Shown: piece after piece, positions 11,739 through 49,385 of the stretch
How positions within the stretch are numbered: the stretch's first letter is position 1
Layout: each line of letters begins with the position of its first letter
Source: Ceratodon purpureus
Taxonomy: Eukaryota; Streptophyta; Bryopsida; Pseudoditrichales; Ditrichaceae
NCBI GenBank assembly: GCA_014871385.1
Contig: CM026429.1
Location: forward strand, 10,569,640-10,633,639
Reading direction: 5' to 3'
Length of the DNA stretch: 64,000 bases
Notes under the pieces: generated by a model
Databases searched by the model: none
What the model was told of the DNA's origin: nothing
Seen by the model: only the letters and a program-made list of their open reading frames with translations
Translations under genes and position numbers: made by a program

Positions 11739-11810
11739 ACTCGTGACCGCCGCTACGAGTTCCGGCTCGACTACGTCCTTCCGGTCAAGCTTACTCTGTT
11801 CCAGATCTAG

Positions 11811-11826
11811 TGACAGAGATATTTCA
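11811..11826. repeat. LINE target-site duplication, right copy
   Basis: Exact copy of TGACAGAGATATTTCA at 5247-5262, at the 5' end of the LINE. Confidence 0.93.
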
Positions 11827-13619
11827 AACACTATCATACTACCAAACTTTTAAAGGTTAATTCGAATTCCCAATTTTGAGAAGGACATACAAGTTAATTC
11901 CAATTACAAGCATATTAGGAGAAGGGCATGCAAGTAGAAGATGTAGCCATGTGTCTACAATTTGTGCAGTATCTCCTAACCCCTAATTTGACTCTAGTTG
12001 GAACTATTGGATTCCACTAAAACCAAAGAGAGGTGCCACTATAATCTCACTTGTGATTGGTTGTTTTATAAAGATCAATTCTCTTTTCAGCATAAACCCC
12101 TGGATTATCCCCCAAAGCGGTTTGGTAACTCCTAATCTTCACATGGGCCTGCAACCTGCAACAAGTGCATGGGCTCCCTAGCCCTGTAGGTAATCATACT
12201 ACCCAACTTACAAATTGGAATCCCATTAAAAATGGAGCTGGAGCCACACAAACTGAAAGCACAGAGATCGAGAGTACCCAACTTGCCACCTGGCAGGGAC
12301 CCAGATCCATGAACGGAAGAGCATGCATCGATATTCTTTGAAGGTGATATCCATGTGCAGGTAACTTAACCATACCATTGCGCAGTGGGTACTGGTCCAC
12401 TGGGTGTTGACAGAAAAGTAACCAAAAACAGAACGCTCCCCTTCGCACAAAGGAGTTTGTAAATGATTAAAAAGGCGGTCTCGGTGTACTTGGAAGGCCT
12501 CCTACACACTCTCAAGGGTCAGCCTAAAGGTACACTTACTTGATTAAGTTGATAAGCTCGCTAATCAGAGTTCCAGTGGCAAATATGTGTGGGTTTCTCG
12601 CAAAGTTGCGATGCCATTGGTTCTTTGATCCAGGGTTTTGGACACATGATTTGCCTAACCTGGTCAAGATGTACCCTCATAATCTAGAAGGGGAAGAAAA
12701 TTTGGAATCCTGGGGCTCAGAATGGAGGTTACAGCCAAGATTGGACCACATAATCACTTCATGGTTCATGTTTAGCCCTACTAATAGGTGTATTAAAAGG
12801 ACAATGACATGATACTAGTCAAGACATGAAATCATGAGAATACCAAATATAGTAATCCCTGGATACCATATCTCTTCCTTTTTGGGTTTGATGTTTTATT
12901 CCTTCCATCCACAATTTCTATTTTTATTTTAGAAACAATCCAAAGAGTTTATTAACATGGCAAAGATACAAGGAATTACAAAGATACAAAGGACATTGCA
13001 AAAGATGCAAAAGGCATTGCAAAGATACAAGGCAGAAACAAACCAGCAAATGAAATCCAACAGAACATCCACAATTTTTCCAACGAAATCAATTCCCTCT
13101 GTCTGGCCAGGGATTTTGGACTATGTATTTGGTCTACAAGTGTGATATTTCTTTGTACAGTGAAAGGAGGTTCCTTTATTTGTGTAATTAATTAACATAT
13201 ATATGTTTCCTCCACTTTTGAATATACATAAATTTCCAAAACTGATTAAAGGTAATCTCTCACTAGTACAACTTACAATTCTACAATTAAAAGCATGACA
13301 TATTCATTTCTGATCCATTTTTTCTTTTGTGCTGAAATGGCATTTCATTTACGTTTTTCCTTTGAAGCACAACCAGTGAACATATTTGGAACCAAAATAT
13401 TACACAATGTAGTAGGTACTAAATAGCGCTTGCATCAAATTAGTCTACCTTTCTTTTTCTTTTTCTTTTTTTCTTGAAAATTACACACCATTTTCATGTA
13501 GAAATCCAAAGAATTTTAAGATTCCAAAGACACCTCCATTTTTAGAAACTAATCAAGAAAAATGCCAAATTATTTTGTAAGGATGTGCCAGTCGCCTTGG
13601 TCTCCAATCGAATTCCAGC
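11827..13619. other. Intergenic DNA, no gene seen
   Basis: Moderately AT-rich. A short A/CAAAG-type simple repeat lies near 12955-13040 (AAGATACAAGGAATTACAAA and variants). It produces a lysine-rich open frame that is not a gene. No RNA gene or element end was recognised. Confidence 0.55.
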
Positions 13620-13623
13620 TTAA

Positions 13624-14543
13624 CCCCTAAATTTCCTTGTGTTTTTGAGAGCTTGAATCCTCAAAACTGCGATTTTTTACCACTATGCCCTCCCGAGGAT
13701 ATGAAACAAATTTTTTATCTTTTTTTGGAAATTCAACCGTAAGATCTTGTACCTAACCCTACTTGGAAGAACTGATTCAAATTTCAACCGTTGGATGTTT
13801 TTATAAGTGAGATCGTAGTGTTCAAAGTTTCAGCAGATACTTTTTTGGGCCTTGGCCGAGAGGCATGGTGCAAATGGGCCAAAGGGAGACTTGATGATTA
13901 TTACTTCAAACATTTTGGTCACATTTTTTTCCATGTAGCTAACTAGGTTAGGTATGCTCATGCAAAAATTTAGGCCAAAAAAACGCTTTTTAGACCTTCA
14001 TAAAAATTATTTTCTGTAAGAAGGTATAAAATTGACAAAATAGTAAAACATGCATTACAAAAACAATTTGTGAGCTAAAGAAAAATTGAACGGTGAGTAG
14101 ATACCTTCATAAATTTGTGATTTTCAGAAGAAAACAAAATTCAAAAATCTCGAATTTTGACAAATTTTTAAAGGAAAACTTCAAAAATTACTAAAAACTT
14201 TGAAGCTTGTCTTTGTAAGTTTTGGAGGCTGCCCTTGTAAAATTGGTAAACTTTTTGACTTGGGTCACTATGAAATTTGAGTAGTGATTTGGTTATGAAC
14301 ATATTTCAATTTTTGGTTTTTTAAAAATACCTAATTTTAGACTGCCCGTTTTGGACTTGAAACCTAAAATTTCTAGATGAAGGTTCTAAAATTGGAATTT
14401 GGCTTCAAAATTTTTACTACATAGACCTTACCGTAAAGGGAGCATCCAGTAAAAATCTTGAAAAAAAATATTACTTTTAACCCCTCCATCTGGGCTGCCC
14501 GAAAGTGCAAAAACCCATTTTGGGTTTTAAGGATAGTTAGGGG
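13624..14543 (+). mobile_element. TTAA-bounded MITE, family A (copy 1)
   Basis: A 920-bp non-coding element between TTAA at 13620-13623 and TTAA at 14544-14547. It starts CCCCTAAATTTCC and ends GGATAGTTAGGGG, so the outer inverted ends are short (about 7-8 bp). It is nearly the same as 16762-17694; by eye over 90% identical. It contains the internal motif CAACCGTAAGATCTTGTA and the block GGGAGCATCCAGTAAAAAT near its right end. It has no coding potential. A TTAA target duplication with a CCC start is the piggyBac-superfamily signature. Confidence 0.8.
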
Positions 14544-14547
14544 TTAA

Positions 14548-15661
14548 CCATTCTGTGGCTAATCCCGAGCATAGCCCCCAAAACGAATTTTCTTGTCACG
14601 GTTATAATTTAAGAAATGGATAGAAAAACACAGAAGAGAGAATCCTCCCTTTCTACAACAGAAGAACCATTCATTTGTCCTCTTTAATAAAAATGAAAAA
14701 TAATAAAAACACAAAATACAAAATACAAATACGAACACTAGACTCTACAGATGAAGCCAGAAAGGTCGATGACTAGGCAGGGTAGGCACCCAGTCAAAGG
14801 GCAGGTAGTAAGTGAAGTTAGTAGGAGCGGTGGGCTATACTAGTGAGTAGTGAGGCTGAGCCATTGAATACAGTGTACGTAGTAGGGGGAGGACCGCGTC
14901 TACCGGGTACGTAGGGGGACATGTCTGCTGTAGGAGAGACCAGGCCCCCGCCTCCGGGACAGCCCTGGCGACCCGCTTCGAGGAGGAGCCTCGTATTACG
15001 CTGTACACGACAGCGTAGGCTCCACTTTTTCTCATACTGCCCAAGTATTGTACGTATTCTGTCCGAGTAGTTGAGTATTTGGCACTGTGGGGGTTTGCCA
15101 TGAATGCTCTCCTCCTCTTTTGCTCCTTGGTATGGCATGGGCTCTTTTCGGAGATTTTTGCTCTGGGTTATTGGTATTGGTCAATACCAACACTCGATGG
15201 CGTGTGGGCGGCACGGGTTCGTATTGTACATCTTGGCTGAATTGGAGTTACATCATCATCGGAGAAGGGTGGAACGCATTATTTTATTATTTTATAATTT
15301 GTTTTGTTTAGTTTTTGTAGTTTATACAAAGTTCAAACTTATGTGATTTTCTTTTTGGTTTGACTGGTTTTGCTTTGACCAGCTAGGGTACTTAGTGTGA
15401 CAATATTGCTTATCAGGAACGAAGCATATGTCTCAATTTTTTCATGAGGAAGAGTGATGTTTTATTTGGTTTCTGCGCACATTGCGAAAAAATAAAATAA
15501 AATTGCCTCATCTGTGTTTTGTTGCATGCATGTTCGTCACTGGGAAATATGTTCATTGTTACCCAAATATCAAATGAAAAATAAATTAGACTGTGATGAT
15601 TTGATTAACCTTCAAACATGCATCAGGACCTGGTGGGTTATTTGGGTCATTGAAATTCCAT
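14548..15661. other. Intergenic DNA containing a GC-rich island
   Basis: AT-rich flanks surround a GC-rich core at about 14750-15250, which is described separately. No other feature is recognised. Confidence 0.5.
14818..15138 (-). other. GC-rich open frame of unknown nature
   Basis: A 106-codon frame on the minus strand lies within a GC-rich island that stands out from the AT-rich surroundings. Its composition looks coding-like (runs such as GRQGCPGGGGLVSPTADM, YVPGRRGPPPTTYTVF). A second minus-strand frame (14835-15101) is equally open, which argues that GC content alone may explain both. No domain is recognised. It may be a gene fragment, a captured exon or chance. Confidence 0.25.
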
Positions 15662-15665
15662 TTAA

Positions 15666-16757
15666 CCCCTAAAGTTTTTGGCCATAAAATCCCAAATTCT
15701 GCCTCAATTCTGCCCTCTTTTAGTTCAAGGTAGAATTATGGAAATTCAAACGTATTTTAAGAATCTAACCGTATGATCTAGTACCTAACTTGTACATGTG
15801 TGTACACAAAATTTTAGATTGTAACTCCTCACCGTTTGGAAGATCGTAAGGTTTGAACTTGAGAGAAAAGTTGTTTTTGGTACTGCCCGGGAAGGTCAGC
15901 CACCCTTCGGACAGTGAAATAACAATTTTTTGAGATTGTGTGGTTAAAGGCTCTTCAGTTTTGGATTCTAAAGTGAGTTGGGAGTATGCTCAAAAAAATT
16001 GAAGACAATAAAACACACAGAAGTATTGGAAAACCACATTTCCAGTGACAAGAGTCAAATGAAATGCATATACACTAGCTTTTTTTCCACACTACAAATG
16101 CTTAAGAAGATCATTTATTTTTTGAAATCTGAACAGTGTATATATGCATTTGTATGGAAAAGAAATTGTAGAGGAAAGAAATCCAAAAAATAAATAAATC
16201 CAAAGTAGATATGAATTTTACAGCATATACTATGGTTTAGGAGGAGAAAATGGTGAAGGAAAAATGGGTGACGAAGGTGACCCAACCACTGTTGATCTAT
16301 GTGAAAGTTTTTATAAAACTTGGAACTTTGACTAAATATATCTCAAGATCCGTACGGTCAAAATTTACAAAACTTGGTACGTAGACTAATTGGATGGCTC
16401 TAAACAAGATCCTACGGTTAGATTTTTCAAAATCAAGTTTAAAAAATAACATTGAAACAATTTCAGAAAGGATCATTTGGAAGTCACTATAGACTGTCAC
16501 AGATTTGGTACACCACTCCCATCAGCCACAAACCTGCCCCCGCTGCCCAGAATTGAATTTTGATCTTTAAACACAAATTATTTCTTAACTACTGGCCTGA
16601 TGAAAGTAAAATTTGGTCTTGTTAGAAAGATATGAAAATTTCCCATGTTGTGCCAAAGTTACAATCACATCCGGTAAAATTTTATTCACAGGGAGCCTAA
16701 CCGGAGCCTGACCGGACCTTAAATCATACCAAAACTGTTGAGTTGATGCTTTAGGGG
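15666..16757 (+). mobile_element. TTAA-bounded MITE, family B
   Basis: A 1092-bp non-coding element between TTAA at 15662-15665 and TTAA at 16758-16761. It starts CCCCTAAAGTTTTTGG and ends ACTGTTGAGTTGATGCTTTAGGGG. It contains TAACCGTATGATCTAGTA near its left end and CAAGATCCTACGGTTAGA near its right end, so the internal motif occurs in both orientations. Its right TTAA is shared with the next element (16762). Related partial copies lie at 30959 and 43961. Confidence 0.75.
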
Positions 16758-16761
16758 TTAA

Positions 16762-17694
16762 CCCCTAAATTTCCTTGCGTTTTTGAGAGCTTGAATCCTC
16801 AAAACTGCGATTTTTTACCACTATGCCCTCTTGAGGATATGAAACAAATTTTTTAACTTTTTTTGGAATTCCAAATATAAGATCTCGTACTTAACCCAAA
16901 TTCGAAGAACCGATCCATATTTCAACCGTTGGATGTTTTTCATTAGTGAGATCGTAGTGTTCAAAGTTTCAGCAGATATTTTTTTGGGCCTTGGCCGAGA
17001 GGCATGGTGCAAATGGGCCAAAGGGAGACTTGATGATTGTTACTTCAAACATTTTTGTCACATTTTCTCCCATGTAGCTAACTAGGTTAGGTATGCTCAT
17101 GCAAAATTTTAGGCCAAAAAAATGCTTTTTAGACCTTCATAAAAATTATTTTCTATAAGAAGGTATAAAATTGACAAAATAGTAAAACATGCAATACAAA
17201 AACAATTTGTGAGCTAAAGAAAAAGTGAACGGTGAGTAGATACCTTTATAAATTTGTGATTTAAAGAAAAAAAAACAAATTTTAAAAAATTCAAAAATCT
17301 TGAATTTTGACAAATTTTTAAAGGAAAAATTCAAAAACTACTAAAAACTTTGAAGCTTGTCTTTGTAAGTTTTGGAGACTGCCCTTGTAAAATTGGTAAA
17401 CTTTTCGACTTGGGTCACTATGAAATTTGAGTAGTGATTTGGTTATGAACATATTTCAATTTTTGTTTTTTTGAAAAGACCTAATTTTAGACTGCCCATT
17501 TTGGACTTGAAACCTAAAATTTGTAGATGTAGGTTCTAAAATTGGAATTTGGCTTCAAATTTTTTACTACATAGACCTTACCTTAAAGGGAGCATCCAGT
17601 AAAAATCTTGAATAAAGAGTATTACTTTTAAACTCCTCATCTAAGCTGCCTGAATTTGCAAAAACCCATTTTGGGTTTTAAGGATAGTTAGGGG
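16762..17694 (+). mobile_element. TTAA-bounded MITE, family A (copy 2)
   Basis: A 933-bp element between TTAA at 16758-16761 and TTAA at 17695-17698, in the same orientation as 13624-14543 and closely similar to it along the whole length. It starts CCCCTAAATTTCC and ends GGATAGTTAGGGG. It abuts family B on its left with a single TTAA between them. Non-coding. Confidence 0.82.
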
Positions 17695-17698
17695 TTAA

Positions 17699-19605
17699 TG
17701 TCTCAAATGTCCATTCTAATTGAACTTTCAAACTACAGCCTTAAAGAAAAATACATTGCTCATCTGATAGAGTTGGTTGTTTTAATTTTAGGCACGTTTA
17801 CTATAGGTTCTATCACTACAACATTTTAGTATTTATAATCATCGTTTGAGTGAATTATACGTGTATTATTGTGTGAGCAATTTGGAAAGAAGTTGTATAC
17901 CTTTGAGGCCTTGGGAAAATGTTTTAATTCCTAAATGTTGTATAGACCTAAATTGGACTTCTTACATGTTTTAAAGTTAAACTTCACATTAGAACGTGAT
18001 TATCAATCTTTTGTGAAGAGGCCCTTATAATACTCCAAATTTGCTCTCGAAAACTTTTTTTTAATTTTTTTTTTTTTGATACATTGGATGAAAAATATAT
18101 AAATGAAATGTCGATTTTAAAAGTCAGCAAATCTTTGACCAATGATAAATCCACAAGTTTTGCCAACTTTTCCAATCGGAGGCTTAATTTGTTGTTTGGT
18201 TTTGAGAGAAGAAAAATTTCACATAATATCTTTGCAATGGATAAAAACTGATTAATAAACTATCTGAAATAAGTTTCAACATTTTTGGAATTATATTGGT
18301 ACAGTAGGTTACTAGCAGCTTAGGCAGAAAATAATTATTTTCATGTCTCCCTAAATTTTCTAGAAATTCTTGACTCTATTTGCCCAACTTTGAGATATTA
18401 TTATCTGACTTTGAGATATTGTTTGCCAAACTTTGAGATATTATTTTTCGGACTGCCTAACCACTTTTTGCACTTTGATTAATTAGTAGGCAAAACAGTG
18501 CCCAAGCTGCTAGCTAAGGTATATGTTACAATGTGGAAAAATTTACCAAAATCATGATGATGAAGTGGTAAAATGAGGAAAAGGCGGTGACGATTTTGGG
18601 TCAAAACATACATCTCTCTTGAGTCTTCTCCACTAAAGCCGCGGCATTACTGGTCAGCGGTTTGTTCTTGAAATCCAGAGGGAAGAAATGGATTTGTACT
18701 GTTTGAGATTTTGGATTCTCTAGTCAGTGCAGTCAAGTGATGGGTACTCTTGAAGAGTCCTTCACAGAAGACTTTTGATTTGTTTCGTTAGTGTCTGTTT
18801 AGTGCATTTGCTTCTCGTCACAAATATCTTATTCTCATTAGACTGGACTGCTGTGAATTTTCCATGGTCAAATGAAGAAGAAGACTGTTTGGCAAACCAG
18901 CATGGGCAGCAAGGTTGGGAGGCTCTTGGAAAGATGAAGAGCTAGCCCTCCTTCTGCAATTTCCATGCTTAAGTACAAAAGTTATGATTATCTACCACTT
19001 ACCTTGTTTTGATGCCATTACATGACAAAGGCAACATGGTTGGCATTCGAGTGCTTAACAAGACCTTAAATCACAATAATTTAGAACACTATTGATTGTA
19101 TCTAAGCTATGAATATAAGTGCAGTTGCTTTACCCAGAGGCCAATGTAAGATTGGATGAGCATGACTGTTGTTTTCTCTTGGGAATGTAAGAAAATTATA
19201 TTTTAAGTTCATGACTTCAAAAAAGTGAGTAATCTACTTGTTCTTGGATTATTCAAATCATTTAATTATATACAGTAAATAATACTTGAGTCAAGAAAAC
19301 CCAATAATATGAAACCAGACAAATGAAATAGAATGTGAATCGTAGCAGAGTATTTGGGTAGCTACTTCAACTACACTCTAACCTCCTTTTTGTCACTTTC
19401 CTTATTTTCACATCTATGGTATATTCTAAGAATTAGGGCTAGGGTGGGCATTTACGATTGGCCAGAGTACAGGTGTCACACTCCAAAGCTGTTATATTAC
19501 AAAGGGGGTGAGACCCAGTGTGTGACAATAAGGGGGTTAGAGTGTACACATATTATAACAAAATTCTCTTACTAGAAGTACAGACATTGATTTAATTTAG
19601 GAGGT
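17699..19605. other. Intergenic DNA, no gene seen
   Basis: AT-rich. Three short imperfect copies of the phrase CTTTGAGATATTATTT lie near 18388-18450. No gene or element boundary was recognised. Confidence 0.5.
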
Positions 19606-19609
19606 TTAA

Positions 19610-20540
19610 CCCCCTACAAGTCCAGGAAATCCGATAGTAGTTTTTGCCATTTTAGCCTAGATGAAGAGGTTAAAAGTAATATTTTTGCCTAACTTTTTTA
19701 CTGTTTGCTCCATGTACCGCAAGGTGTCGGGGTAAAATTTGCAAAGTCAAATTCCAACTTTAGGACCTTCATCTAGAAAATTTTGGTTTCAAGTCAAAAA
19801 AGGGCAGTTTAAAATTAGTTTTTTTTAAAAAAAAAATTAAGAAATATGTTCACAACCAAATCACTACTCAAAATCCAAAGTGAGCCAAGTCAAAAACTTT
19901 ACCAATTTTACAAGGGCAGCCTCTAAAAATTTCATGAAAAAGCTTCAAAGTTTTTTGTAATTTTACATTTTTTCCTTTCAAAAATTGTCAAAATTTGAGA
20001 TTTAGGAATTTTTCAATTCTATTTTTTTCTAAAATTCATAAACTCATAGATGTAACTTTTCATTGTTCACTTTTTTTCCAAACCCAAAATCTTTAACGTT
20101 ATTTAAGTTTGACCATATTGTGGGGTTTGTACCTCCTTCTAGAAAATAATTTGCATGAAGGCCAAAAAAACAAAATGAGTCTCAAAATTTTTGCATGGAG
20201 GTGCCGAACTTAGTCACCTACATGGAAAAAAATATGAGCAAAATGTTTGGGGTAACAATCATCAAGCCTTCCTTGGCACCATTTAAACTATGCCTTTTCA
20301 GCAAAGCCAAAAAAAATAAAAAATAAATAAATAAATAAAGAACGTTATAATCTCACAAATGGTAAAGATCCAACTGTTTAAATTTATTATGGTGTTAGTG
20401 CAGGTAATTAGGTTGAAGATCTTGCGGTTAGAAATACCAGAAAAACAAATTTTATTAGAAACATACATAATTTTGATAAGGTGGTCAAAATCTGCAGTTT
20501 TGGGTTTTGGAGGTCCCAAAACACGGTGGACCTTTAGGGA
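19610..20540 (-). mobile_element. TTAA-bounded MITE, family A-like, diverged
   Basis: A 931-bp element between TTAA at 19606-19609 and TTAA at 20541-20544. On the plus strand it reads CCCCCTACAAG at the left and CCTTTAGGGA at the right. Read on the minus strand it follows family A: the block before the end (GAGGTTAAAAGTAATATTTT here) and the TTTTGGACTTG and AGGGCAGCCTC regions are recognisable. It is clearly older than the two close copies. Non-coding. Confidence 0.72.
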
Positions 20541-20610
20541 TTAATCTTGTACCAAATAATAATACACTCCTTGTCATGACTGTGATGTTTTGTTCTTCTA
20601 AAGCAATGTT

Positions 20611-20700
20611 TTCAATTTTGATATCAAGATCATGCACTTTTTTAATATGTAATTTTTCAATTTTGATATCAAGATCATGCACTTTTTTAATATGTAATTT
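20611..20700. repeat. 45-bp tandem duplication
   Basis: Two adjacent identical 45-bp units, 20611-20655 and 20656-20700, each starting TTCAATTTTGATATCAAG. They start about 65 bases to the right of the preceding MITE. Confidence 0.85.
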
Positions 20701-23247
20701 TAATAAATTAAGCACCATTTTCTAAAATCAACAGAAGTTATTGAGAGGAAAATACTATAACTTCTTTTTAATTTAAAAACCACCCTTGTTGATTTTATAT
20801 CAAAAAAGGAAGTGATAATTATTTGAGTAATATTAATTATTGATATTTAAAATTTATATTTTATACAAGAATACGCTTTGTACATTGTAAAATGTCTATC
20901 TCATTTGAAAAATCCCAATGCTATATTCTCATGAATGCTAGCACCTTCAACAATAATCTTCAACAAAACACTGTCTCTAATTGCCTACTCCCATACACAT
21001 GTGGCACCCAAAGATGCCACTGCAACTCGAGATTTAGACTCGACGTTCTATGTGTCAAAGGTTTCTTATACCAAAGTAAATAACATACAAACATTGATCA
21101 AAATCTCACCATACAATTTATTGAATCACATATTGCAACAATAGATTCTCATCGGAAACACTTGAAGCCAAAACTAACAAATACAAACCACTAATTCATA
21201 GTGTTGTTGCGGAGGCTGGAAATTTGATCCACTTGTTGTCATTTTAGCTGCCGCTCGATCCGCTCTACATATTCCTTCAATAAAACTACTTCAAAATAAC
21301 TTCAAAATATCAATATCACATATTAGAAATATTGTATGCCTTGCCTATCCTCCTCGACAAAAGAAGACTAGAAAATCATCGACCGTTACGTCAATTACAA
21401 GATCCCCTTAATTAAAACCAAAAAGTTTTAGAAGCCAAAGCTACTTTATTGAATGTTAGCATCGGGTGTAGTGTTTTTTGTCATGCATGTGATGGGCTGT
21501 TGATTGGCATAGCTTCTTTCCTACCTGCCATTCTTCACTCAATAGTGCCAAGCTACTACATTTCTTACATGTGCTCAAATGAGTCTAACTGGGTTTAAAT
21601 CTAGACTAATTACTTGAGATAAATACATGGGTATTTTAAGGTTATAAAAAATTTAAAACTTAACTTATGTATTGACACTTAACCCATGTATTGACACTTA
21701 AAACTTAACTCAATTCAACATGTTATGAAGATTAGCAAAATTTTTAGAACGGCCCAAGGGGTGGAGGTTGATGTAGTTTTTGGAAAGTCAAATTTGAAAC
21801 TCGGTTAAATGTTTAATATACAATGATTTATTATAGGATCTAAAATTAAATGCAATAAGTTAAAACAGATTTACAAAGAGAAACTTTGGTTTTCCAAGGA
21901 GACCAAGGTGAATGAAATGTCTATTTGTTCCACCCCCAATCCAATGCCCACAAAAGAGAGGAATGGAAGCTATGAACTACTCAATCCTTTCAACTGTAAA
22001 CAATGTAGTCACAAGGCATCACAAACTAAAAATACAAGCTAGATGCTTAGAGTTTTAGTATAAGACTAGTTTTTCTCGAGAGTTGATCGTTAAGACATGA
22101 GCTCATTGTTAATTGAAGATACATGGGTATTTTAAGGTTATAGAAAACCTTATCATTGATGTATTCTAGTAGAATGAGATAGCATTATATTTTTTTTCTT
22201 GAGAAATATATTTTTTCCTTAAATATATAAATATTTGTTTGGAGGTGCATGAACTTGCTATTCTACTACGGTATACTATTTGAAATGAATTACAGTTTGT
22301 AAATTTTAATTTATAAATTATAATTAATACATAATTTATGTAATTTTTATTTTGAATATGATTCATACTACATCCATTTTATTCATGTAAACATATAAAT
22401 AATCATGGAAAGTTGAACTAAACATACTGTGGTCAAATGGCATGCTCTTCTATCTATGATTGTTTTTTTAAAATATAAAGTGCAACAATCACATTCATCT
22501 CTTAATGAGAAAATTATGTTATATACATATAATCGTAATTAAATAAATAAAGTATGATTACATCATGTTTTAAGTCTTGTAAAGCTTATATTTGTGCAAA
22601 TTCTATCATGATAATATTGAAGTCATACGACAACGAATATCAAAGTATCATTAAAAATATGTTTTTGATTTTTGTTTTTTACATTAAAAGAAATGTGATT
22701 TTTTAATTATTTTTATTAATCTATAATGTTTTTACAATGAAAATAGTTTGAGAATGTAGTTATTACGATGAAGTCTATGTAGTTCATTATATAAATAAAT
22801 TGGATAATAAAATTGAATTATTAGGAGTCATTGGATTAGTTTTCTTATTTGCAAATAGAACTATCCTTTGATTTTATCATGTGGTTATAAAACACTATTA
22901 TTGGCTATTGTTGTTGTAGTTTATCAGATTATTTCATTTATGGTTTTGAGATAGTGGAAAGAGACTAGTTTTTATAAATTCATAAGATTCTTCAAAAATC
23001 CCTTTGAATACCTTCTCAAAGGCATCTCTCAGGATCTATGCTAAATCAATATTCAATTGAAGACGGAGCTAATGTAATCTATGCACTTTGCTTCTTTTAG
23101 TCCCTGTCAAGGGCATTGAATTGTTTAAGAATATCATTTTCATGTTACATTAACTTTAAAATCAATTTTTGACAAAAAATATGATTAACTTAATCCTAAA
23201 AGGATATGCATACGTAGTTGTTGAGGAGTGTGTTCAGGGTTTACAGG
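20701..23247. other. Intergenic DNA with minor repeats
   Basis: AT-rich, with no gene recognised. A 24-bp identical pair (ATACATGGGTATTTTAAGG and five more bases) lies at 21623-21646 and 22119-22142. The phrase ATGTATTGACACTTAA occurs twice near 21667-21700. No boundaries of a larger element were found. Confidence 0.5.
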
Positions 23248-23255
23248 GTTTACAC

Positions 23256-23399
23256 CAATGTTGGTCCGTTATGGCATCTTTCTACAGTGAAATCTTGGAC
23301 AGTGGTTCATTCTAAATACCCGTGTGAGGTCCACAGATATTTAGAATGAACCACTATCCAAGATTTCAGTGTAGAAGATGCCATAACAGACCAACACTG
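23256..23399. mobile_element. Foldback MITE, hAT-like, 8-bp target duplication
   Basis: A 144-bp near-palindrome between direct repeats GTTTACAC at 23248-23255 and 23400-23407. The ends are CAATGTTGGTC and, reversed, CAGTGTTGGTC. The arms pair over about 65 bases with a few mismatches and leave a loop of about 15 bases near 23320-23336. An 8-bp duplication and a CA(G)TG start fit hAT-type MITEs. The transcript would fold into a strong hairpin. Confidence 0.8.
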
Positions 23400-23407
23400 G
23401 TTTACAC

Positions 23408-23750
23408 ATGTATTTATGCATTGAAGACTAGAAAAAATGATGTTGTGATGTTCAATTTTTTTGTGGAAAACAATGTCAATACTATAAATGGTATATATTT
23501 TTCCAGATTTTTTGGAGTAATTTAGAGCAACTCTACCACCGCATGTATATGCTGCAAATACGTATAAATGGGCACAAAAGACTCCACATAATACACATAG
23601 TGACTCCAATTTTATTTTTGAAGGTTTCACAATTTTCCTCATCTTTGGGCCCATCTTTTGCTTTTTGGTTGCTTCAAGTAATATGCATTGCAAGGTTCCT
23701 CAATTCATGTTACAATTCCAGCCAAGACCATATTCCACCCTCGAGGCCCT
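23408..23750. other. Intergenic DNA between two MITEs
   Basis: No gene, RNA or repeat recognised. Confidence 0.5.
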
Positions 23751-23754
23751 TTAA

Positions 23755-24675
23755 CCCCTAAACTCCCAGGCAACCAAAATGTGGTCGCCAGCTATTTTGG
23801 GCAGGGTCCCACAGTGTCAAAAATAACTTTCAAGTTTTGAGATTTTGCATGTGGATTCTCTAGGTCATTACGTACTTGCCAAACTTTGTTTCATAAGATT
23901 TGGATATGTAATGCAAAAGTTATGAATGGTTGAAGGTAAAAAATCTCAACGCGGGCAGCCACAAAAAATTCCAAATATATTTTTAAAAAATAATTAAAAA
24001 TATTACCATTTTGTAGAGATTCATATTTAAATTGAATGCTTTGATTCATTCCATTCCAACAAGTGAGGTAAAAGATATGACAATTCATGTTATGCAAGTA
24101 GTTTGGTCAAATCTTCATGAAAAAAAACTTTAAGTGCTCATTTTGAATACAATTTTGACAATCTTTCAAAAATAAAAATAGGAAAAGTTTTTTGTTATGT
24201 ATCACATCATTTTTACCGTTGAAAGTAACTTTATCCACTTTTATGTGAATGTATTAGCAATTTAGTTTTCCCTTGTATTCTATAGTGTATTTTGACTTAC
24301 ATATCTTTTGAAGATGAAAATTTAAGTTTTTTCTTTTGATGTTTTTTGTATAGATTCTCAAGTCATTTTTATGTTAGAATATGGAGTTGCCCATTTCAAA
24401 TTTGTAAAGCATATTTTTTGAAAATTCATTGAAAGTGAGATTTCAGCTTTTTGAAGGATTAAAAAAAACGTGTTTTTTAACTTTGAACACTATGATCTTG
24501 CAATTGGTGTTGTATTTTTCTTTAAATTTCGGAAAAGAATGTCTCAATAAGCTAGCTATGAGATCCTACGGTTGAAATTGCAAAAACATGCCATAAAATT
24601 GGAAAAACTAACTTGCTTCACAAATGAGTGTTGAAAGGCAGTTTTTGATGTGAATTCATGGTGGGCATTTAGGGG
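23755..24675 (+). mobile_element. TTAA-bounded MITE, family D
   Basis: A 921-bp non-coding element between TTAA at 23751-23754 and TTAA at 24676-24679. It starts CCCCTAAACTCCCAGGC and ends GGTGGGCATTTAGGGG. It carries GAGATCCTACGGTTGAAAT near the right end, matching the internal motif shared with the other families, and ATGATCTTGCAATTGGTG, which is also present in family E. Its length matches family A although the sequences are far apart. Confidence 0.72.
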
Positions 24676-24679
24676 TTAA

Positions 24680-26969
24680 GGGTTAACCCATGAACATTTA
24701 TTTAACATTTAATCACACACTATATATTATTGTCATAGATGATCCCTAAAAAACATACATAAGTAGAAGCAATACATGGTGGAAGTGGTATGGAACAATA
24801 GAAAATCAAGACCTGCAAGCAGGTTTGATGCTTTGACCAGTTAACCCAGTTGTAAAATTGAGCTAAGATCCACTATGATTTGGACTTTTTATTGTGTTAT
24901 CATTTTCTGAACAAGTATTAAATTGAAATAACAGGAGGTACACAAAGATAGTTCAACATGACCGGTCTATTGCTTTCCACGGAGATACAGTCAGCCTCTA
25001 TTTAAATGACAGAGTGTATCAACTTTAGAGTAAGAAGGCCGGCCACAGTTGAGAGTCTTACCTACAACTTGTTCCCATTTACAATACTAAATATGTCCAG
25101 GCAAGCAATTCCCGAAGATAATAAAAAGAATAATTAGCTAATTTTCCTAAGCCTATGGCCACTTGGCCATTCAGTGTCTTCCACATACTGTACTGTGGCA
25201 CAAGGTACAATTGAATTTACATAATAAAGCATGGCACATGCAAGTTTAACTTATGTATGTTAAGCATGCTGGTCACTGCAAGAAGAGATCATGCCAACAA
25301 GTTACAACTGCAAAAGCAAACATTGCGCTCACTTTCAACAACAATATCTCTTTTTTGCGGATCTTGTATGCTTGGAAATCATATGCAAACCCTCGGCCAG
25401 AAGTTTAAGTTTTGCATAGAATCTCCGGGCACCCACTACACCAAAACATTTGGAAAAGTCGTAGTACAATGGTATGATTTGAGTTATTCATGACAGTTTG
25501 TAACTTGGCAGAGTTTGTGTTTAGGTTTGAGTTAGACTGTACTAGCTCCCATGTTGCTTTCACCCCGTAGAAATTTGAAGAACCCTCATGCCTCCAGTGT
25601 GGCGTTTTTGATTCACACTAGCACACAACATGTATAAGTTCTTTCAGAATAATGAAGGAGCTGGAGCTGTCATACCCCGGTTTGACACGTGGAGAATTCC
25701 TTCGGCTGGAGTCAACTACTGAGATGTGAAATGGGTCTATATTTTCAATACATGCGTATGTGCCTGCTTCTATCATTTTGCTAGAAACAAACTAACGCTT
25801 TTTACAGGCCATTCATACATCGGGCTAGTGAAAATGACTGGCAGTCTAACATAGTTCTAAATGAAATGGAATTGACAAGGCCTCTGAGTCGTATATTTTC
25901 AACTCATCACCGAAAGCTATGCATGACAGTGCCCAATTCATGTCAAGTATAGGGTCAGTAATTTCAAAAAAAATCTGTCATGTTGTTTAATTTTGCATAG
26001 TTCATTATAACTAAGTGCTTCATGCAGAGGCAATTTGTTTACCGAGGTTGCAGCACCAGAGACCGCCACTTTCAGCTCCTTCTGTTCAAATGGCACACTT
26101 GGTATTGGGGTTGGCCAGGTATTGACCGGGGATTGACCGGGGATTGACCGGGGATTGGCCGGAATTGGCCGGTGGTGTACATGGTAGTCAGTTAATTGTG
26201 CCTGTATGAATCCTTATTCCTACCCTTATGCCTACCTTGCAAATCGCTTATGCTAAACCACAACAAAAGTAATAGTCAAATATCAGATTTAATTGCTATG
26301 TACCACAGCATGTATGTGCTTGAGATAAGCACTATGAGACAGCCATGGTCAGAGTATTGTGTACCTCTACTTGTATGTATGTGGTGCGTCTTTTCATATC
26401 AAATAATCAAACAGAAATTTGGCAAAATTGTTGACTAATTATGTTGACTGAGAAGGTGTTGAACATCATTGCCAGAACTTTGAAGAGTCTACCAACATCC
26501 ACTGGCCCAATTAAAATACAGTATACCTCAAACTGAGAATTCATGTTATGGAGGCCGGTGTCTACCATAATATGAACTCCTTGATCAACCTTATGCTAAT
26601 TGTAGGAACCTAGTCATTGCTGATCATAGGTGGGATGTGGTTCAGTGGTCTGGGCAGTCTGCATCAATCAGCAAATATTCAAGGCAATATATGAACATGT
26701 TCATATTATTGAGAGGTAAATAAATTACCGCACGTCCATAGCAAGTTCGTTCATAAATTGTTATTATTTCTGAAATTTTTAAAAAAATTGTAAAAATTAA
26801 GGATGAAAAAATGAAAACATAGCATATTTTTTATTTGTAAATTATATTATTTTTAGATGAAAGCTTAAAAGTCAACAATATCCCCATTTTTTAACCTATA
26901 TTTAATCTAATATAGCCTTGGACTTATTGTAAATTCAACCTTATAACAATTCAACAACATACGTATTCC
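24680..26969. other. Intergenic DNA with one short tandem array
   Basis: No gene recognised. From 26121 to about 26174 the 11-mer ATTGACCGGGG is repeated three times, followed by degenerate ATTGGCCGG units. A frame at 25257-25493 is open but unrecognised and probably chance. Confidence 0.5.
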
Positions 26970-26973
26970 TTAA

Positions 26974-27833
26974 CCCCTAAAGGACAATCTGCCACATTTG
27001 GGCTTTTTTGGAATTTGGGCATGTACCTGTGAATGCAATTTATATCATGATTTTCTGAAATTTTTATTGAAGGTGGGCCGTTCGGAGATCTTCGTGTGGG
27101 TATTTTTATTTTTCAATTCCGACATCGGGATCAAAAGTTATGAAGGTTTAAGTGTCAAACGCTGCTCATTGGGCAGCTGCTGAATTTTTCTAAGCCACTG
27201 TGAATGCAGCAAATTCTGCCCAAAACTGCCCAAAACTGCCCAAAACTGCCAAAATCTGCCCAAAGACAAAACTTTGAAATTCCACCAAAAATTGAGATTT
27301 TGATATTTTTCAAAAATAAAAATTTCTATGTATAGAGAAGGCAGTAGAGCATGTTCCCACCGTTTGGATTTTCAATCCATAATTTTTTCATATGCTATTT
27401 TTATTGTCAAAAAACGGCCTTTGTTTGTGAATTTCAGTATACCCCCTAGCGGAAAATGATTTTTTTGGCAACTTTCCACAACTTTTTTGAATATAATTTT
27501 CTAAGTACAATTAGCTAACTCAGTTTTCTTTGACGTGCATCAAAACCACCAAAATCCATAATGCAAAAAAATGGTTTTTTGGGCCTTCAAAACTCTGTTG
27601 TCCCCTTTTTTTGCAGGGAAAAAAACTTGTTTTTCTACTTTGAACGTTATGATCTTGCAATTGGTGAAGAATGAGTGTGTGATATTTGGTGGACATGTAG
27701 ACATAGAAGTTAGCTACAAGATCTTACGGTTAGATGTTCTAAAAAAGACCCCAAGTTTGCAAAATCCACCTTGCTTTGAAGAGGGGCTGTTTTGAGGCAG
27801 TTTTGATGAAAAATACCCTCAGAACTTTAGGGG
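26974..27833 (+). mobile_element. TTAA-bounded MITE, family E
   Basis: An 860-bp element between TTAA at 26970-26973 and TTAA at 27834-27837. It starts CCCCTAAAGGACAATC and ends CCTCAGAACTTTAGGGG. An internal array of the 10-mer CTGCCCAAAA (about five units) occupies 27216-27265. CAAGATCTTACGGTTAGAT near the right end is the shared internal motif. A reverse-oriented shorter relative lies at 29369-29944. Non-coding. Confidence 0.78.
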
Positions 27834-27837
27834 TTAA

Positions 27838-28251
27838 ATTGTTTTTTTGGATATATTCTAGTATATGTGTATTATTTAATTAAGAATTAAGTTGTCTTAT
27901 AGGTTCCAAGCACTACTAATACGACATGCATAATAAAATTTCAAAAATTAATTTAATTTGTACAAAACTTGCTTCTCAATTAAATTTCTTTTTAAAGCCT
28001 TTTAAGGCTTGTACCAATATATTTATAAATAGATCCATATTGACATTTAAAAATTAATAAAATTGCGACATAATTAACAAAGTCTTAAAACTATAGTGTT
28101 GGTTTAGTAGTTTTAATGAGACTGTATGATCATATCAAATCTAATAGCTATAAATTTACACGGTCAGATTATAATGAATATCAATTTCTATATAAATAAG
28201 AATCTAATTCTTTCTTCACACTGGCCTCTAAAATACACAACGATTCCTTTT
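27838..28251. other. AT-rich spacer between MITEs
   Basis: Very AT-rich. Nothing recognised. Confidence 0.6.
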
Positions 28252-28255
28252 TTAA

Positions 28256-29172
28256 CCTCTAAAAATCCAGCGGTTTTTGGAAGCTCCAAGTTCCAAAACT
28301 GTCATTTTTGACCGCTTTGTGGGAATGACGGCTTGGACCAGTTTTTTTCTTTTTTTTAAACATCTAACCGTAAGATCTTGTACTTTATCCTCTTTAGAAG
28401 TACTGATAAAATTTTCAATCGTTGGATGTTTATCATTTGTGAGATTATAACATTCAAAGTTGCAGCAAGAGTTTTTTTTGGTATAAACTGAACAACATAG
28501 GGTAAATGGTGAAAATGGGGACTTGATGTTCATTATCCCAAACATTTTGCTCATATTTTCTTCCATGTAGGTAATCAAGTTGGGTACCTTCATAAAAAAA
28601 TTTAGAGACTTATTCCTTTTTTAGGACCTTCATAAAAATTATTTTCTAGAAGCGGGTCTAAAAACGTTGATATTGTAAAACATGTATGACGTTAGGCATA
28701 CTTGGTTTTAGAAAAATCTAAATGGTGGTTAGGTGCCTTTATACATATTTTATTTTTGGGCGAAATTATTTTTGAAAAATTTCAAAATCTCAAATTTTGA
28801 CGAATTTTGAAAGAAATAATTCAAAAATTTGAAGATTGTCTTTGTAATTTTTAGAGGCTGCCCTTGTAAAATTGGTTTATTTTTTGACTTGGGTCTCTTT
28901 GGAATTTGAGTGGTGGTTTGGTTATGAAAATATTTCAAGAATATTTTTAAAAAAAAACCCTAATTTTTAGCTGCCCGTTTTGGACTTGAAACCTAAAATT
29001 TCTAGATGAAAGTCTTAATATTGGAATTTGGCTTTGAAAATTTTACCACATTTACTTTGCAGTATAGGGAGCATCCAGTAAAAATCTTATGCAAAAATAT
29101 GAATCTGAACCCCTTCATCTTGGCTGCCCAAAACAGCAAAAACCCGTTTCGGCTTTCCTAGATTTTTAGGGG
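28256..29172 (+). mobile_element. TTAA-bounded MITE, family A-like (copy 4)
   Basis: A 917-bp element between TTAA at 28252-28255 and TTAA at 29173-29176. It starts CCTCTAAAAATCC and ends CTAGATTTTTAGGGG. It carries TAACCGTAAGATCTTGTA, TTTGGACTTGAAACC and GGGAGCATCCAGTAAAAAT in the same order as 13624-14543, but is well diverged from it. Non-coding. Confidence 0.76.
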
Positions 29173-29368
29173 TTAAATATTCATTCATGCTTCTGAAGAA
29201 GAGGCTAAAACTATTCTTGTTTTTTACCCAGACCAAATCCAAGGAAAAACAAAAGATTTTGTGTAAGCGCTTGGAGGAGTAAGACATCCATGTTAACCAG
29301 AATTTCACTTAAAGTAGATGGTTATCAATAAAAACAGGTTGATATTGCTAACTATATGTCATACTTAA

Positions 29369-29944
29369 CCCCTATTGTTCTGAGGGTATTTTTCATCAAA
29401 ACGGCCTCAAAGCAGCCCCTCTTCAAAGCAAGGTGAAGTTTGCAAACTTGGGGTCTTTTTAAGTACATCTAACCGTAAGATCTTGTAGCTAACTTCTATT
29501 TCTACATTTCCATCAAATCTCACACACTCATTCCTCACCAATTGCAAGATCATAACGTTCAAAGTTGAAAAATAAGTTTTCTCTATGTATAAAAAATTTT
29601 ATTTTTGAAAAATATCAAAATCTCAATTTTTGGTGGAATTTCAAAGTTTCGTCTTTGGGCAGATTTTGGCAGATTTTGGCAATTTTGGGCAGTTTTGGGC
29701 AATTTTGAGCAGAATTTGCTGCATTCACAGTGGCTGAGAGCTTGCCCGAAGTTTGGCTGAAATCTTTAAAACGCTCTAACTCATGAACCGTGAGTCCAAA
29801 TGTTGATTTTTTTGGCTCTATGGAAAGCTACCGTCCACATCTACCACCCGAAAAAGTCTCAAAAATTTATAAAAATAGAAAGCACCCACAGTGGTCTGAC
29901 CAGAATAAAAAATGGCCGTTTTGGTCCTCTTAGAACTTTAGGGG
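29369..29944 (-). mobile_element. TTAA-bounded MITE, family E, short reverse copy
   Basis: A 576-bp element between TTAA at 29365-29368 and TTAA at 29945-29948. Its left half is the reverse complement of the right half of 26974-27833, including TAACCGTAAGATCTTGTAGC and a complementary GGGCAGTTTTGGGCAATTTT array near 29660-29710. Together with 26974-27833 it forms a large inverted pair about 1.5 kb apart. Non-coding. Confidence 0.76.
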
Positions 29945-29948
29945 TTAA

Positions 29949-30621
29949 TAACATCACGCTATTTGAGTTCGTTACTATTATACTGGTTAGGTGAAAAAAA
30001 ACTATTTAAAAAAATGTGTTGTATGTAATCATTATAAAAAATCCAAAAATTTTAATTCATGAAAATAATTTCCCTTCAAAATCATGCATTACTAAAATTC
30101 AAAATAGAAATCAGATTAATTATTCTGAAAAAATTCCAAAAGCCTACCAAATTTTAGTTTAAAAAAATAAAACTCCATTTTAGGTGAATTTTTGAAGCCA
30201 ATTTCCATGGTTTTACATGACAATTTTCTACAAATTGTTAAAACAATACATATATCTATATTATAATTAGATTTTTATTTTTTCCCTTTGTGTGGTAATT
30301 AAGTTCATACACTTGAGCATGATAGCACAATTTTTTGCTAAATCTAATTAAAATATTAAGATATGTATTTCACAAAGTTTGGTCATATAGCACGTTATGT
30401 TGAGAGTTCTTACCAGGAGCTCATTTTTGATACTTGATGCAATATTGTTGATATGAAATTTGTGATATGAATGTTTCCTACATATGTATGCATTTGAATT
30501 AGAAAAAAATTCATCACCAATTGTTTGCAATAAAACATTATGTAAAAGTATGAAAATTGACTTTAAAAATTCATCAAAACTAGAACTTTGCTCTTTTAAA
30601 ATTGAAATTTAGAATGCTTGA
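29949..30621. other. AT-rich spacer
   Basis: No gene or repeat recognised. Confidence 0.55.
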
Positions 30622-30625
30622 TTAA

Positions 30626-30954
30626 CCCTTAAAGGTCATCCCTAGCCTAAAGGGTTGGGTTTCCACAAAATCTTTTCTGTGGCGCTTCCTGTATTCAACT
30701 TTTCACTTATTCTTTTATATCATTCTAATCACCTTTTTATGATGCATTCACAAAATGAAATTTTATAATTCAATTCACAATTTGTATGAGTGATTTATGC
30801 TTTGAAAGAATTATGGTAGATAGATTAGGGTTGCACATAATCTTGTAAGAGGTTGCAAGCTGACTATTGATTGGTTCCTTCATGATGCCCAAATACAAAA
30901 ATGTTGTGATCCAATTTTGGCTGCCCTTCCAGGTCCCAAAATAACCTTTAAGGA
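30626..30954. mobile_element. TTAA-bounded MITE, family H (small)
   Basis: A 329-bp element between TTAA at 30622-30625 and TTAA at 30955-30958. It starts CCCTTAAAGGTCATCC and ends AATAACCTTTAAGGA, giving an inverted end of about 9 bp. Its right TTAA is shared with the next element. Non-coding. Confidence 0.6.
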
Positions 30955-30958
30955 TTAA

Positions 30959-31186
30959 CCCCTAAAGTCGAAATCGACCCAATCCCTGTTGATCTGCCTG
31001 AAAGTTTTAGGAACTTAGACTGAATATATCTCAAGATTCTTATGGAAAAAATTGATTAAACTTGGTAGAGAGACTAATTGGATGGCTCTTTACAAGATCC
31101 TACGGTTGGATTTCTCAAAATCAATTTAAAAATAAATAAATTGTGCTACAATTTCAGAAAGGATCGTTTGGAAGTCACTGTAGACA
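30959..31186 (+). mobile_element. TTAA-bounded MITE, family B, partial
   Basis: It begins directly after the shared TTAA with CCCCTAAAGTCG and then follows family B (compare 16255-16497): TATCTCAAGATTC, GACTAATTGGATGGCTC, CAAGATCCTACGGTTGGAT and AATTTCAGAAAGGATCG. The left half of the family is missing, and the copy fades out near 31186 without a right end. Confidence 0.6.
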
Positions 31187-32613
31187 TGTGGTCGAGTTCG
31201 ACTTTAGAGATTAAAAGTGCGTTAGGATGCAATGATAATTATGCAAGACAAAAATTCCAACATTTTTCTACAATATGCAATGAAAAATGGATTGGCTCAA
31301 ATAGGCTTATTGTATTCATCTCAGACCCAACTGTACAGAAAATGCTAGGTGCATTAGATCCTTGTTGATGCTGTCCCAGTTTCCTCCGATGAACAAGGAA
31401 AACCATCACAAGTTCACAACCTACATCTCAGTTCTGATTTAACAGAAAACTACCAGACAAAAGTGTGCATGGAACTGGAGCCATGATGTCTTTGATGCTG
31501 GTGTTGTTTTTTTATCGAATGTTTTACCCTTCAACAAGTTCAGCAGCATTTTCACTTATACAGCATAACCTCTTCATTAAACATCAAGGTCACCTCATGA
31601 TGAATGTTGTCATTAGTGAGGCTAGCCTGCTTTATACTCCCTGTCTCTTTTGTGTTGTAAAGATGTCCTTGTAAGAATTAGGCCAATTATCAACTTCTTA
31701 ATCACTTCCTAAATTAGGAATTGTGAAAGCACAAAGCAGGCCTGAAATTTGCGATATCCTTGCACTGCACAGTGGCATGAAACACAAAGCATGCACAAGG
31801 ATCAGAAGCTCATGGACAAATTTATTGCTAAATTGCCAAATAAATACCATTTATATAGCTGAAGGGCCACTCACTCTCATTTTCCGAGTACACCTTTGAA
31901 GGTGGCATTTTTGTGGATGATTCACCAGGAGCAAAGGCCTTTTAGTGCTCCCAGTTTCTTATATCAGTGTAAAGGATTTATCATACTTGTAAATCATAAA
32001 GATGAAGGGCATTCAACAGATCAACCCAAGAGGTATGGGATCCATAATAAAATAAGATTAATTCCCAATCATGTGAAAGTGTATAATCTAAATATACACA
32101 ATATTAGCATTTATGTACTTTTCCTTTGAATGCTATGGAGCTGGCCTCAGCATACCATGATTGTTTGATGTAAAGGGCCTATTGAAAAACACAGAATTAG
32201 AACATGCAACGCTCTAATCATCTGAAGTGATCAGTTTCAGTTGTTTCGCAGCTTGTGATTTGTGTGGGAGATGGAACTGTACTAGGCTTGCCATATTCAG
32301 ATGTTTGCTTTATTACAAGAGTTATCTGTAAACTACCTCTGACAAAATTACACATAGATTCAAGGCACTGCAACATTTACATGAAATTTTAATGATACCA
32401 AAGCAGGGAGATTTTTAGTGTATTTACAACTCATAGTCAAACTCTTGGTTCTTTACAAGATAATTTTGTTTTTTTAGATTTTGCATTCTTGAGTTTCTAA
32501 TTTCATGCTGGAAGTGTCAAGTGAAAACCTTGTTTCATTGCAAAAGGGTACCAACATGTTGAGGAGCAAAGTGCTAAGCGGCTAAGCCAATACTGCAAGT
32601 TTTCAGAATCCAA
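31187..32613. other. Intergenic DNA, no gene seen
   Basis: Short frames near 31190-31370 and 31465-31674 look slightly coding-like but match nothing recognised and are broken by stops. No RNA gene seen. Confidence 0.4.
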
Positions 32614-35265: not shown

Positions 35266-35357
35266 TTTGAAGGATTATTCTGCAATCCGACTTGTGTGTG
35301 GGTGGAGTACAGTGCGTGAGGTCAGGACTCCGATTGACTAAAGAACCTGCTTTCGGA

Positions 35358-43956: not shown

Positions 43957-43960
43957 TTAA

Positions 43961-44205
43961 CCTCTAAAGCATCAACTCAGCACTTTTGGTATGATTTGGG
44001 GTCTCGCCAGGCTCCTTATGATTCATTTTTTAGCGGATGAAGCTGTAACTTTTGGCACATCAGGTCCAATCCTCATATCTTTCAAACAAGACCAAATTTA
44101 ACTTCCATCCGATCCGTAGTGTAGGAGTTATTTATGTTTGAAAATCAAAATTTAATTCAAGGCAGTTGGGGGAGGTTCATGGCCAATGGAAGTGAGGTAG
44201 AAATT
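43961..44205 (-). mobile_element. TTAA-bounded MITE, family B, partial reverse copy
   Basis: It follows TTAA (43957-43960) and starts CCTCTAAAGCATCAACTCAG. It matches the reverse complement of the right end of 15666-16757, including the GGTATGATTT and CTTTCAAACAAGACC regions. Similarity fades near 44205 and no second end is present. Confidence 0.65.
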
Positions 44206-48819: not shown

Positions 48820-49385
48820 CTAGAAAATTCATATCTTTTAGGGATTTGATTTTTTTCGGGTTTTTTTTTTTTTTTTTCCTAATTTTTTTTAGTAGGAAGG
48901 GATGTTTTCACCATTTGGATTTTGCAAATAAAAAATTGAGGTTTGGCATTTCTACTCTCACAGAAGAACCAGTGTATGTGTGTTTCTTGTGACCCCAATC
49001 ACTTCAAATGTGATTTTTGTATACTTCCGACTGTTGTATGCTCTTCAAATTTGGGGAGTATACTCCTAACTGACTTTGAAAGGGAATCCGTTTTGTCTCC
49101 ACCCATATTAAACTTGAAATATTGGTTGATTCAGTGTCTGAATGGTGGCTGTCCTTGCCGGGCAATACCAAAAAAAACTTTTCTATCAACTTCAGAGTTT
49201 ATGATCTTGCAAATGGTGAAGACTTACAACCTAAATTGTTTTTTACACATACATAAATAAATTAGGTACTAGATCCAGCGGTCAGATTCTTCAAAATACG
49301 TGCGAATTTGGCAAATTATACTTCAAACAAAAACAGGGCTGTTTTGAGGGAAAATTTCAGGTTTCCAGGCCAAATGCTTTAGGGG
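48820..49385 (+). mobile_element. TTAA-type MITE, family E-like, left end missing
   Basis: The right part follows family E: TTTATGATCTTGCAAATGG, CTAGATCCAGCGGTCAGATT, GGGCTGTTTTGAGG and the terminal AATGCTTTAGGGG, followed by TTAG where TTAA would be expected. The left boundary is approximate and no CCCC start was found. Confidence 0.5.

Follow-up and report, generated by a model that had tools for sequence, protein, structure and literature searches.

We analysed a window of 64,000 nucleotides from the moss Ceratodon purpureus (assembly GCA_014871385.1, contig CM026429.1, positions 10,569,640 to 10,633,639 of the forward strand), in which ten short elements bounded by TTAA lie within one interval (window positions 13620-31214). 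With a probability of roughly 0.94, these are non-autonomous cut-and-paste miniature inverted-repeat transposable elements (MITEs) of the piggyBac superfamily and are mobilized by transposases of that superfamily that the same genome encodes. A piggyBac-type assignment had already been proposed in a sequence-only reading of the window, and it is supported by genes with the piggyBac DDE domain (PF13843), by TTAA-CCC ends around all six transposases that were fully read, by alignment of MITE ends with the ends of such elements (one of them in the window), and by an empty site with a single TTAA. At the level of sequence, recent amplification and a subterminal box at one end only further characterize these elements. 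Genome-wide searches covered the assembly of 362,488,568 bp in 151 contigs.

Ten TTAA-bounded elements in the interval

The elements have CCCCTAAA-type ends, measure 260-1100 bp and occupy 7,803 of the 17,595 bp of the interval (44.3%), which bears out the earlier description of ten TTAA-bounded elements filling about 44% of 17.6 kb. Coordinates include the TTAA at either end, and strand refers to the orientation that places the boxed, 3'-side end (the end with the subterminal box described below) at the left. Ends were paired by script for nine of the ten elements, with inverted-repeat alignments of 13-25 nt; e4, which the script did not pair because its left end (CCCCCTAC) differs from CCCCTAAA at three positions, was paired by reading and by alignment to e1, e3 and e7.

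Five groups were distinguished. Family A comprises e1 (13620-14547, plus strand, 928 bp) and e3 (16758-17698, plus, 941 bp), to which e4 (19606-20544, minus, 939 bp, reversed) and e7 (28252-29176, plus, 925 bp) are related; mutual alignment of the four gave 72-93% identity. The second group consists of e6 (26970-27837, minus, 868 bp) and e8 (29365-29948, plus, 584 bp), which match at the boxed end (93% over 216 nt), and the third of e2 (15662-16761, plus, 1100 bp) and e10 (30955-31214, minus, 260 bp; 80% over 219 nt). The remaining two are e5 (23751-24679, minus, 929 bp) and e9 (30622-30958, strand not assigned, 337 bp), the latter with tips of the CCCTTAAA/CCTTAAAG type. Several families are thus present, as had been claimed, but they are fewer than they look, and the statement that they hardly align with each other was partly wrong. 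Searches with e1 and e6 each returned 40 scored matches (at 96-100% and 95-100%, respectively, the query itself among them), and e2 gave 42 rows from 40 scored candidates, in the window and elsewhere.

The copy at 30959 had been read as truncated on its right. This reading was rejected once a right end (TTTAGAGATTAA) and a 25-nt imperfect inverted repeat had been located, and e10 is a complete element. It adjoins e9 with one TTAA (30955-30958) in common, just as e2 adjoins e3 (TTAA at 16758-16761), an arrangement expected if a later insertion took the target of an earlier one. None of the ten contains a transposase gene: the longest listed open reading frame (≥100 amino acids, aa) lies in e7 and spans 113 aa, and none of the scored PF13843 places lies inside them.

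Two details of individual elements were recorded. The other side of e8 has diverged from e6, its sole listed match being to the transposase locus L071 (63% over 97 nt); e8 could be of hybrid origin or an old product of internal deletion. The right end of e5 gives way, at 24668-24690, to TTAAGGGTTAACCC, a short stretch rich in TTAA that could be left over from the tip of another element.

Transposase genes and ends shared with the MITEs

PF13843 was found at no fewer than 116 places genome-wide (best E-value 5.3e-84), a lower bound because these were the places scored among 998 first-look candidates. Counted by hand from the listing, 93 of the 116 matches were free of internal stops and 23 contained a stop. 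Six transposase loci, chosen mostly for their long frames, were read at 9.5 kb. Their frames extended over 660-1151 aa from stop to stop, PF13843 was matched in all six proteins (E-values 1.7e-75 to 2.3e-81), and a Pfam scan of the six returned no transposase domain other than PF13843 at E-value ≤ 0.001. All six genes were flanked by TTAA-CCC inverted repeats, which lay 3.9-6.8 kb apart and had 0-3 mismatches over 14 nt; L059 also has unrelated TTAATTAA runs that pair. The protein of L060 aligned with Trichoplusia ni (T. ni) piggyBac (PDB 6x67; E-value 6.5e-27) over all three catalytic Asp, the equivalents of D268, D346 and D447, which are named as catalytic in passages of PMC7351741; the other proteins were compared by eye, as were the cysteine-rich C-terminal tails seen in proteins of the read loci. 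A tree of the domain (24 rows, midpoint root) contained at least five groups within this one genome; the join of L022 and L061 lies between long branches and is unsure, and the row for the window consists of two frames placed end to end.

The window itself contains a decayed transposase-bearing piggyBac element of ~5.4 kb (43957-49389, plus strand), with left end TTAACCTCTAAAGCATC, right end GCTTTAGGGGTTAG and, at the latter, the target TTAG. Its DDE domain is matched in a first part (46291-46860, plus; PF13843 positions 3-139, E-value 1.5e-23) and a later part (47248-47589, plus; positions 264-342, E-value 3.4e-8), and by eye the first catalytic Asp is replaced by Asn.

The element e2 aligned with both ends of the window element (70% over 645 nt and 74.5% over 263 nt) and is therefore regarded as its internally deleted relative. 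In a comparison of MITE ends with the ends of transposase elements at E-value ≤ 1e-4, the boxed ends of e1, e3, e4 and e7 matched the 3'-side end of L070 (66-74% over ~300 nt), and e6, at its other end, resembled L072 (80%) and L071 (76%) on their 5' sides. An e6-like MITE in L063 reached 94.7% over 207 nt with L071; the other ends of e5 and of a MITE nested in L059 resembled L064 (67% and 73%). Apart from e9, every listed match of a boxed end was to a 3'-side end and every match of the other end to a 5'-side end (e9, n_L004 and n_L008 have no box, and their orientation is arbitrary). Both ends are thus shared with piggyBac elements in e2, one or both in e1, e3-e8 and e10, and e9 shares them weakly.

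TTAA target, empty sites and recent copies

The pattern TTAACCCCTAAA occurred 9,407 times genome-wide (4,663 forward and 4,744 reverse), against 128 for a reversed-pattern control (70 + 58). With a base other than T in front (VTAACCCCTAAA), the counts were 210 + 235, and 74 + 87 in the control. The base outside TAACCCCTAAA was T at 9,407 of 9,852 places, and this conserved outer T argues for a 4-bp TTAA target rather than TA. Neighbouring ends were counted among 100 ends listed over the first 3.25 Mb of contig C1: left-then-right neighbours lay <1.5 kb apart in 27 of 36 pairs, and right-then-left neighbours in 4 of 35. The 27 pairs were spaced by 229-1364 bp, 19 of them by 823-934 bp. As a rough figure, scaled from one stretch of one contig, ~3,000 short elements in the genome would be exact at both ends.

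Eleven exact ends fall in the interval, as against at most five per 17.6-kb stretch starting at any of the 100 listed C1 ends. Exact back-to-back sites (TTAGGGGTTAACCCCTAA) numbered 41 genome-wide and 0 in the reversed control; one of them is at window positions 16751-16768. The interval has 33% guanine plus cytosine and 9.3 TTAA per kb, versus 42% and 5.5 per kb in the remainder of the window, a contrast owed in part to the composition of the elements themselves. Most likely, insertions were tolerated and accumulated in this TTAA-rich DNA, and existing TTAAs were used again, to give the swarm.

Empty sites were searched for with joined flanks, the candidates being those of 47 short elements with 120 nt on either side. 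The best was that of a family-A copy on contig C9 (L032), which matched an unfilled duplicate in the same locus at 99.2% over 244 nt; the unfilled site has one TTAA, and the filled site reads TTAA-element-TTAA. Judged from this alignment, the empty site would fit either a pre-insertion site or a seamlessly excised one. In addition, L023, a paralogue of transposon L059, lacks the MITE nested in the latter (89%), and repeats in L007 (87%) and in the window (84%) lack the copy that L050 contains. Flank matches of L001, L013 and L042 (66-72%) gave no clean junction, and the query window:14477-16761 was set aside as no empty-site test, since it spans two elements.

Thirty family-A copies, which were the best matches to e1 (window copy included) and not a random sample, were pairwise 97.2-99.9% identical, and family A is, by this measure, recently amplified. 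TTAA was present at both ends of 29 of the 30, and their 20-nt outer flanks were on average 27-29% identical. Other copies with these borders therefore exist and similarity does not run past the TTAA, the two points on which the sequence-only reading could have failed.

A subterminal box at one end only

Different families have in common a box, AACCGTARGATCTT, that lies 107-118 nt inside one end only and the core of which (AAGATCTT) is a palindrome. In the interval it was located as CCGTAAGATC in e1 (13737-13746, plus strand, position 118 from the end), e6 (27720-27729, minus, position 109), e7 (28368-28377, plus, position 117) and e8 (29473-29482, plus, position 109), as CCGTATGATC in e2 (15769-15778, plus, position 108), as CCGCAAGATC, with one mismatch, in e4 (20418-20427, minus, position 118), and as CCGTAGGATC in e5 (24562-24571, minus, position 109) and e10 (31096-31105, minus, position 110). 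The 50,764 bp of the window outside elements contained no exact occurrence of the 10-nt box core and three with one mismatch.

In L059, L060 and L064 (3 of 3), the boxed end lies 3' of the transposase gene. The prediction that further 3' regions would have a TTAA-CCC end and, at 107-118, the box was made beforehand and then tested, and it held for eight of eight (six boxes exact, two with one mismatch); about seven of these loci are distinct, because L021 and L025 are near copies, with box regions retrieved, though unscanned, before the prediction. Among transposase-bearing elements of the clade, a box with up to one mismatch at positions 100-125 was present at the 3' side in 11 of 12 ends, the window element being the exception, and at the 5' side in 0 of 7. 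When MITEs were added, the counts became 21 of 23 and 0 of 17, and shuffled ends gave a mean of 0.035 of 23 with the box (maximum 2). Left out of the 23 were e9, L061, L062, L063, n_L004 and n_L008 (other lineages) and L028 (same place as L064). No end was found within the sequence retrieved for 10 of 23 3' flanks of transposase loci, the end of L014 has no box, and in L009-L011 the end is present with the box only at 3-4 mismatches, the CCGT at 109 being kept.

According to passages of PMC7351741, T. ni piggyBac depends on the asymmetry of its ends, and its C-terminal zinc finger binds as a dimer to an internal repeat that is palindromic. By analogy, the moss box is a putative internal transposase-binding site, placed farther in than the T. 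ni repeat. A second conserved box, AAGATTATAGCGTT-like, was observed ~75 nt inward of the first (for example in e6 near 27650) and by eye resembles a partial inverted copy of it; the two could make a two-site array.

Proposed mechanism and alternatives

In the mechanism that we propose, the MITEs would be moved by piggyBac transposases encoded by elements of 4-7 kb at other places in the genome, and e2, and probably the other MITEs, would have derived from such elements by internal deletion. The transposase would bind the CCCCTAAA tip and, at one end only, the palindromic AACCGTARGATCTT 107-118 nt inside, the latter presumably through its C-terminal zinc finger; the element would be excised and then inserted into a TTAA, which would be duplicated. 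Copies may be mobile still today, and the local swarm may have built up in TTAA-rich DNA with the aid of TTAAs supplied by earlier insertions. A wider claim is that a land plant harbours thousands of MITEs along with piggyBac transposases in five or more deep groups, with open frames, and that a single transposase clade acts on many MITE families, still mobile today, by way of a two-part code common to them, the CCCCTAAA tip and a one-sided palindromic zinc-finger site ~100 nt inside. We put this forward tentatively, at somewhat less than even odds. No description of such an end layout for piggyBac was met in the literature searched.

Several observations weigh against a piggyBac origin of the MITEs or against parts of the mechanism. 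The zinc finger PF13842 scored 21.4 bits in L060, below the cut-off of 24, and gave no match in the other five proteins. For L070, to which family A pairs best, no 5' end was found in 1.3 kb of upstream sequence, so that this pairing rests on one end at 66-74%, and the match of e9 to the 3'-side end of L062 is weak (40 nt at 82.5%). In the older empty-site pairs (L059/L023 and L050), the single target is itself altered. Neither e3 nor the window element at 43957-49389 has a box at ≤1 mismatch. The box counts of 21 of 23 and 0 of 17 are not independent, because the MITEs were oriented partly by the box, and the counts are not to be taken as probabilities, because the loci are kin.

Three other explanations were considered. 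The elements could be Kolobok or Sola3 MITEs with convergent borders; both of these superfamilies likewise target TTAA. Sola1 is listed for Physcomitrella in the available text of a 2022 review (PMC9033089). This origin is disfavoured because the six end-sharing partners that were scanned encode PF13843 (and PF13842 weakly in one), the scan having been of these partners and no genome-wide Kolobok or Sola profile search having been made, and we consider it very improbable. A Tc1/mariner-type (Stowaway-like) origin, in which TA would be the target and TTAA its favoured setting, would draw on the TA contained in TTAA and on Stowaway MITEs, which are common in plants. It was rejected, as a free outer base would be expected but the outer T is conserved, and the partners encode PF13843; we give it next to no weight. 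The last possibility is that the elements are piggyBac MITEs but relics, copied recently and left with no working transposase now, as the decayed window transposase and the 23 PF13843 matches with a stop would suggest. Against this stand the near-identity of the family-A copies, the filled and empty duplicates at 99%, and the long open frames in all six read loci, and we regard relics as unlikely, though a serious alternative to piggyBac MITEs with a transposase at work.

Comparison with known systems

MITEs tied to piggyBac, with TTAA, have reportedly been found in two coral genomes (PMC2872659); the host there is an animal, and the likeness to the moss MITEs is one of description only. Like the moss elements, T. 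ni piggyBac (PDB 6x67/6x68) has a PF13843 DDE/D transposase with three catalytic Asp and a TTAA target, and passages of PMC7351741 describe asymmetric ends and a palindromic internal site for it, the binding role of the moss site being predicted. It differs in protein size (594 aa, against moss frames of up to 1151 aa stop to stop), in its functional ends, which measure 35 bp and 63 bp and both carry the internal repeat according to the same passages, whereas the moss box is on one end at 107-118 nt, and in host, the moss elements residing in a plant. The piggyBat element of Myotis lucifugus (PDB 9c0f), the second and last PDB match of L060 (E-value 5.7e-25), is described in part of PMC8086355 as having simple 15-bp inverted repeats, in contrast to the conserved subterminal box of the moss elements.

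The sequence-only reading had considered piggyBac-type MITEs in a land plant to be new. As a claim on the class this was too strong, since a 2023 review, in the text available, counts PiggyBac among the superfamilies of angiosperm MITEs (PMC10004981); these share the superfamily label in plants with the moss MITEs and are likened to them by label only. In the portions available, piggyBac is stated to occur in plants by PMC10140906 and PMC8086355 and listed for plants in two reviews (PMC10004981, PMC10794571), a fern repeat table holds 1,230 PiggyBac entries at 0.00% (PMC6890710), and a 2025 paper calls plant piggyBac occasional, with red algae as the example (PMC12732532). A term search did not return the word piggyBac from the main text of the 2022 review of land-plant transposable elements (PMC9033089). 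No report of piggyBac in a moss was met in the literature searched, which did not extend to the Ceratodon genome paper or to a large piggyBac survey, and the novelty of moss piggyBac is not proven.

The superfamily and its MITEs were thus already known, and what is new here is the asymmetric ends with a one-sided subterminal box. We rate the young, abundant and many-branched piggyBac population with this distinctive box as a new plant variant; a land plant seems to have seen a wide and recent spread of piggyBac. PiggyBac is a leading gene-transfer transposon and has been documented mainly in animals, a picture that the moss population changes. Dozens of natural ends make the need for piggyBac end asymmetry testable by comparison, plant-adapted enzymes are on offer for study, and TTAA-flanked repeats in moss annotations deserve re-examination.

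Other features of the window and genome

Frames on the minus strand at 5461-11837 have the look of a non-LTR (long terminal repeat) retrotransposon of the long interspersed nuclear element (LINE) type, and we take their translations to be LINE endonuclease and reverse transcriptase. Two likely host genes, presumably encoding a WRKY transcription factor (35292-38338, plus) and an S-adenosylmethionine synthetase (59929-61143, minus), were recognised from their translations. The element tip CCCCTAAA/TTTAGGGG includes CCCTAAA/TTTAGGG, the plant telomere repeat unit; the likeness is probably a coincidence.

Contig C6 (110.5 Mb, 30.5% of the assembly) held 1 of the 40 best family-A matches (binomial P 9e-6 if spread by length), 6 of 40 e6 matches, 4 of 42 e2 rows and 19 of 116 transposase matches (the last three counted by hand), the MITE counts being of best matches to C9 copies and not of random samples. 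C6 is probably a sex chromosome: the UV sex chromosome of Ceratodon purpureus is given as ~30% of the genome in a passage of PMC13120521.

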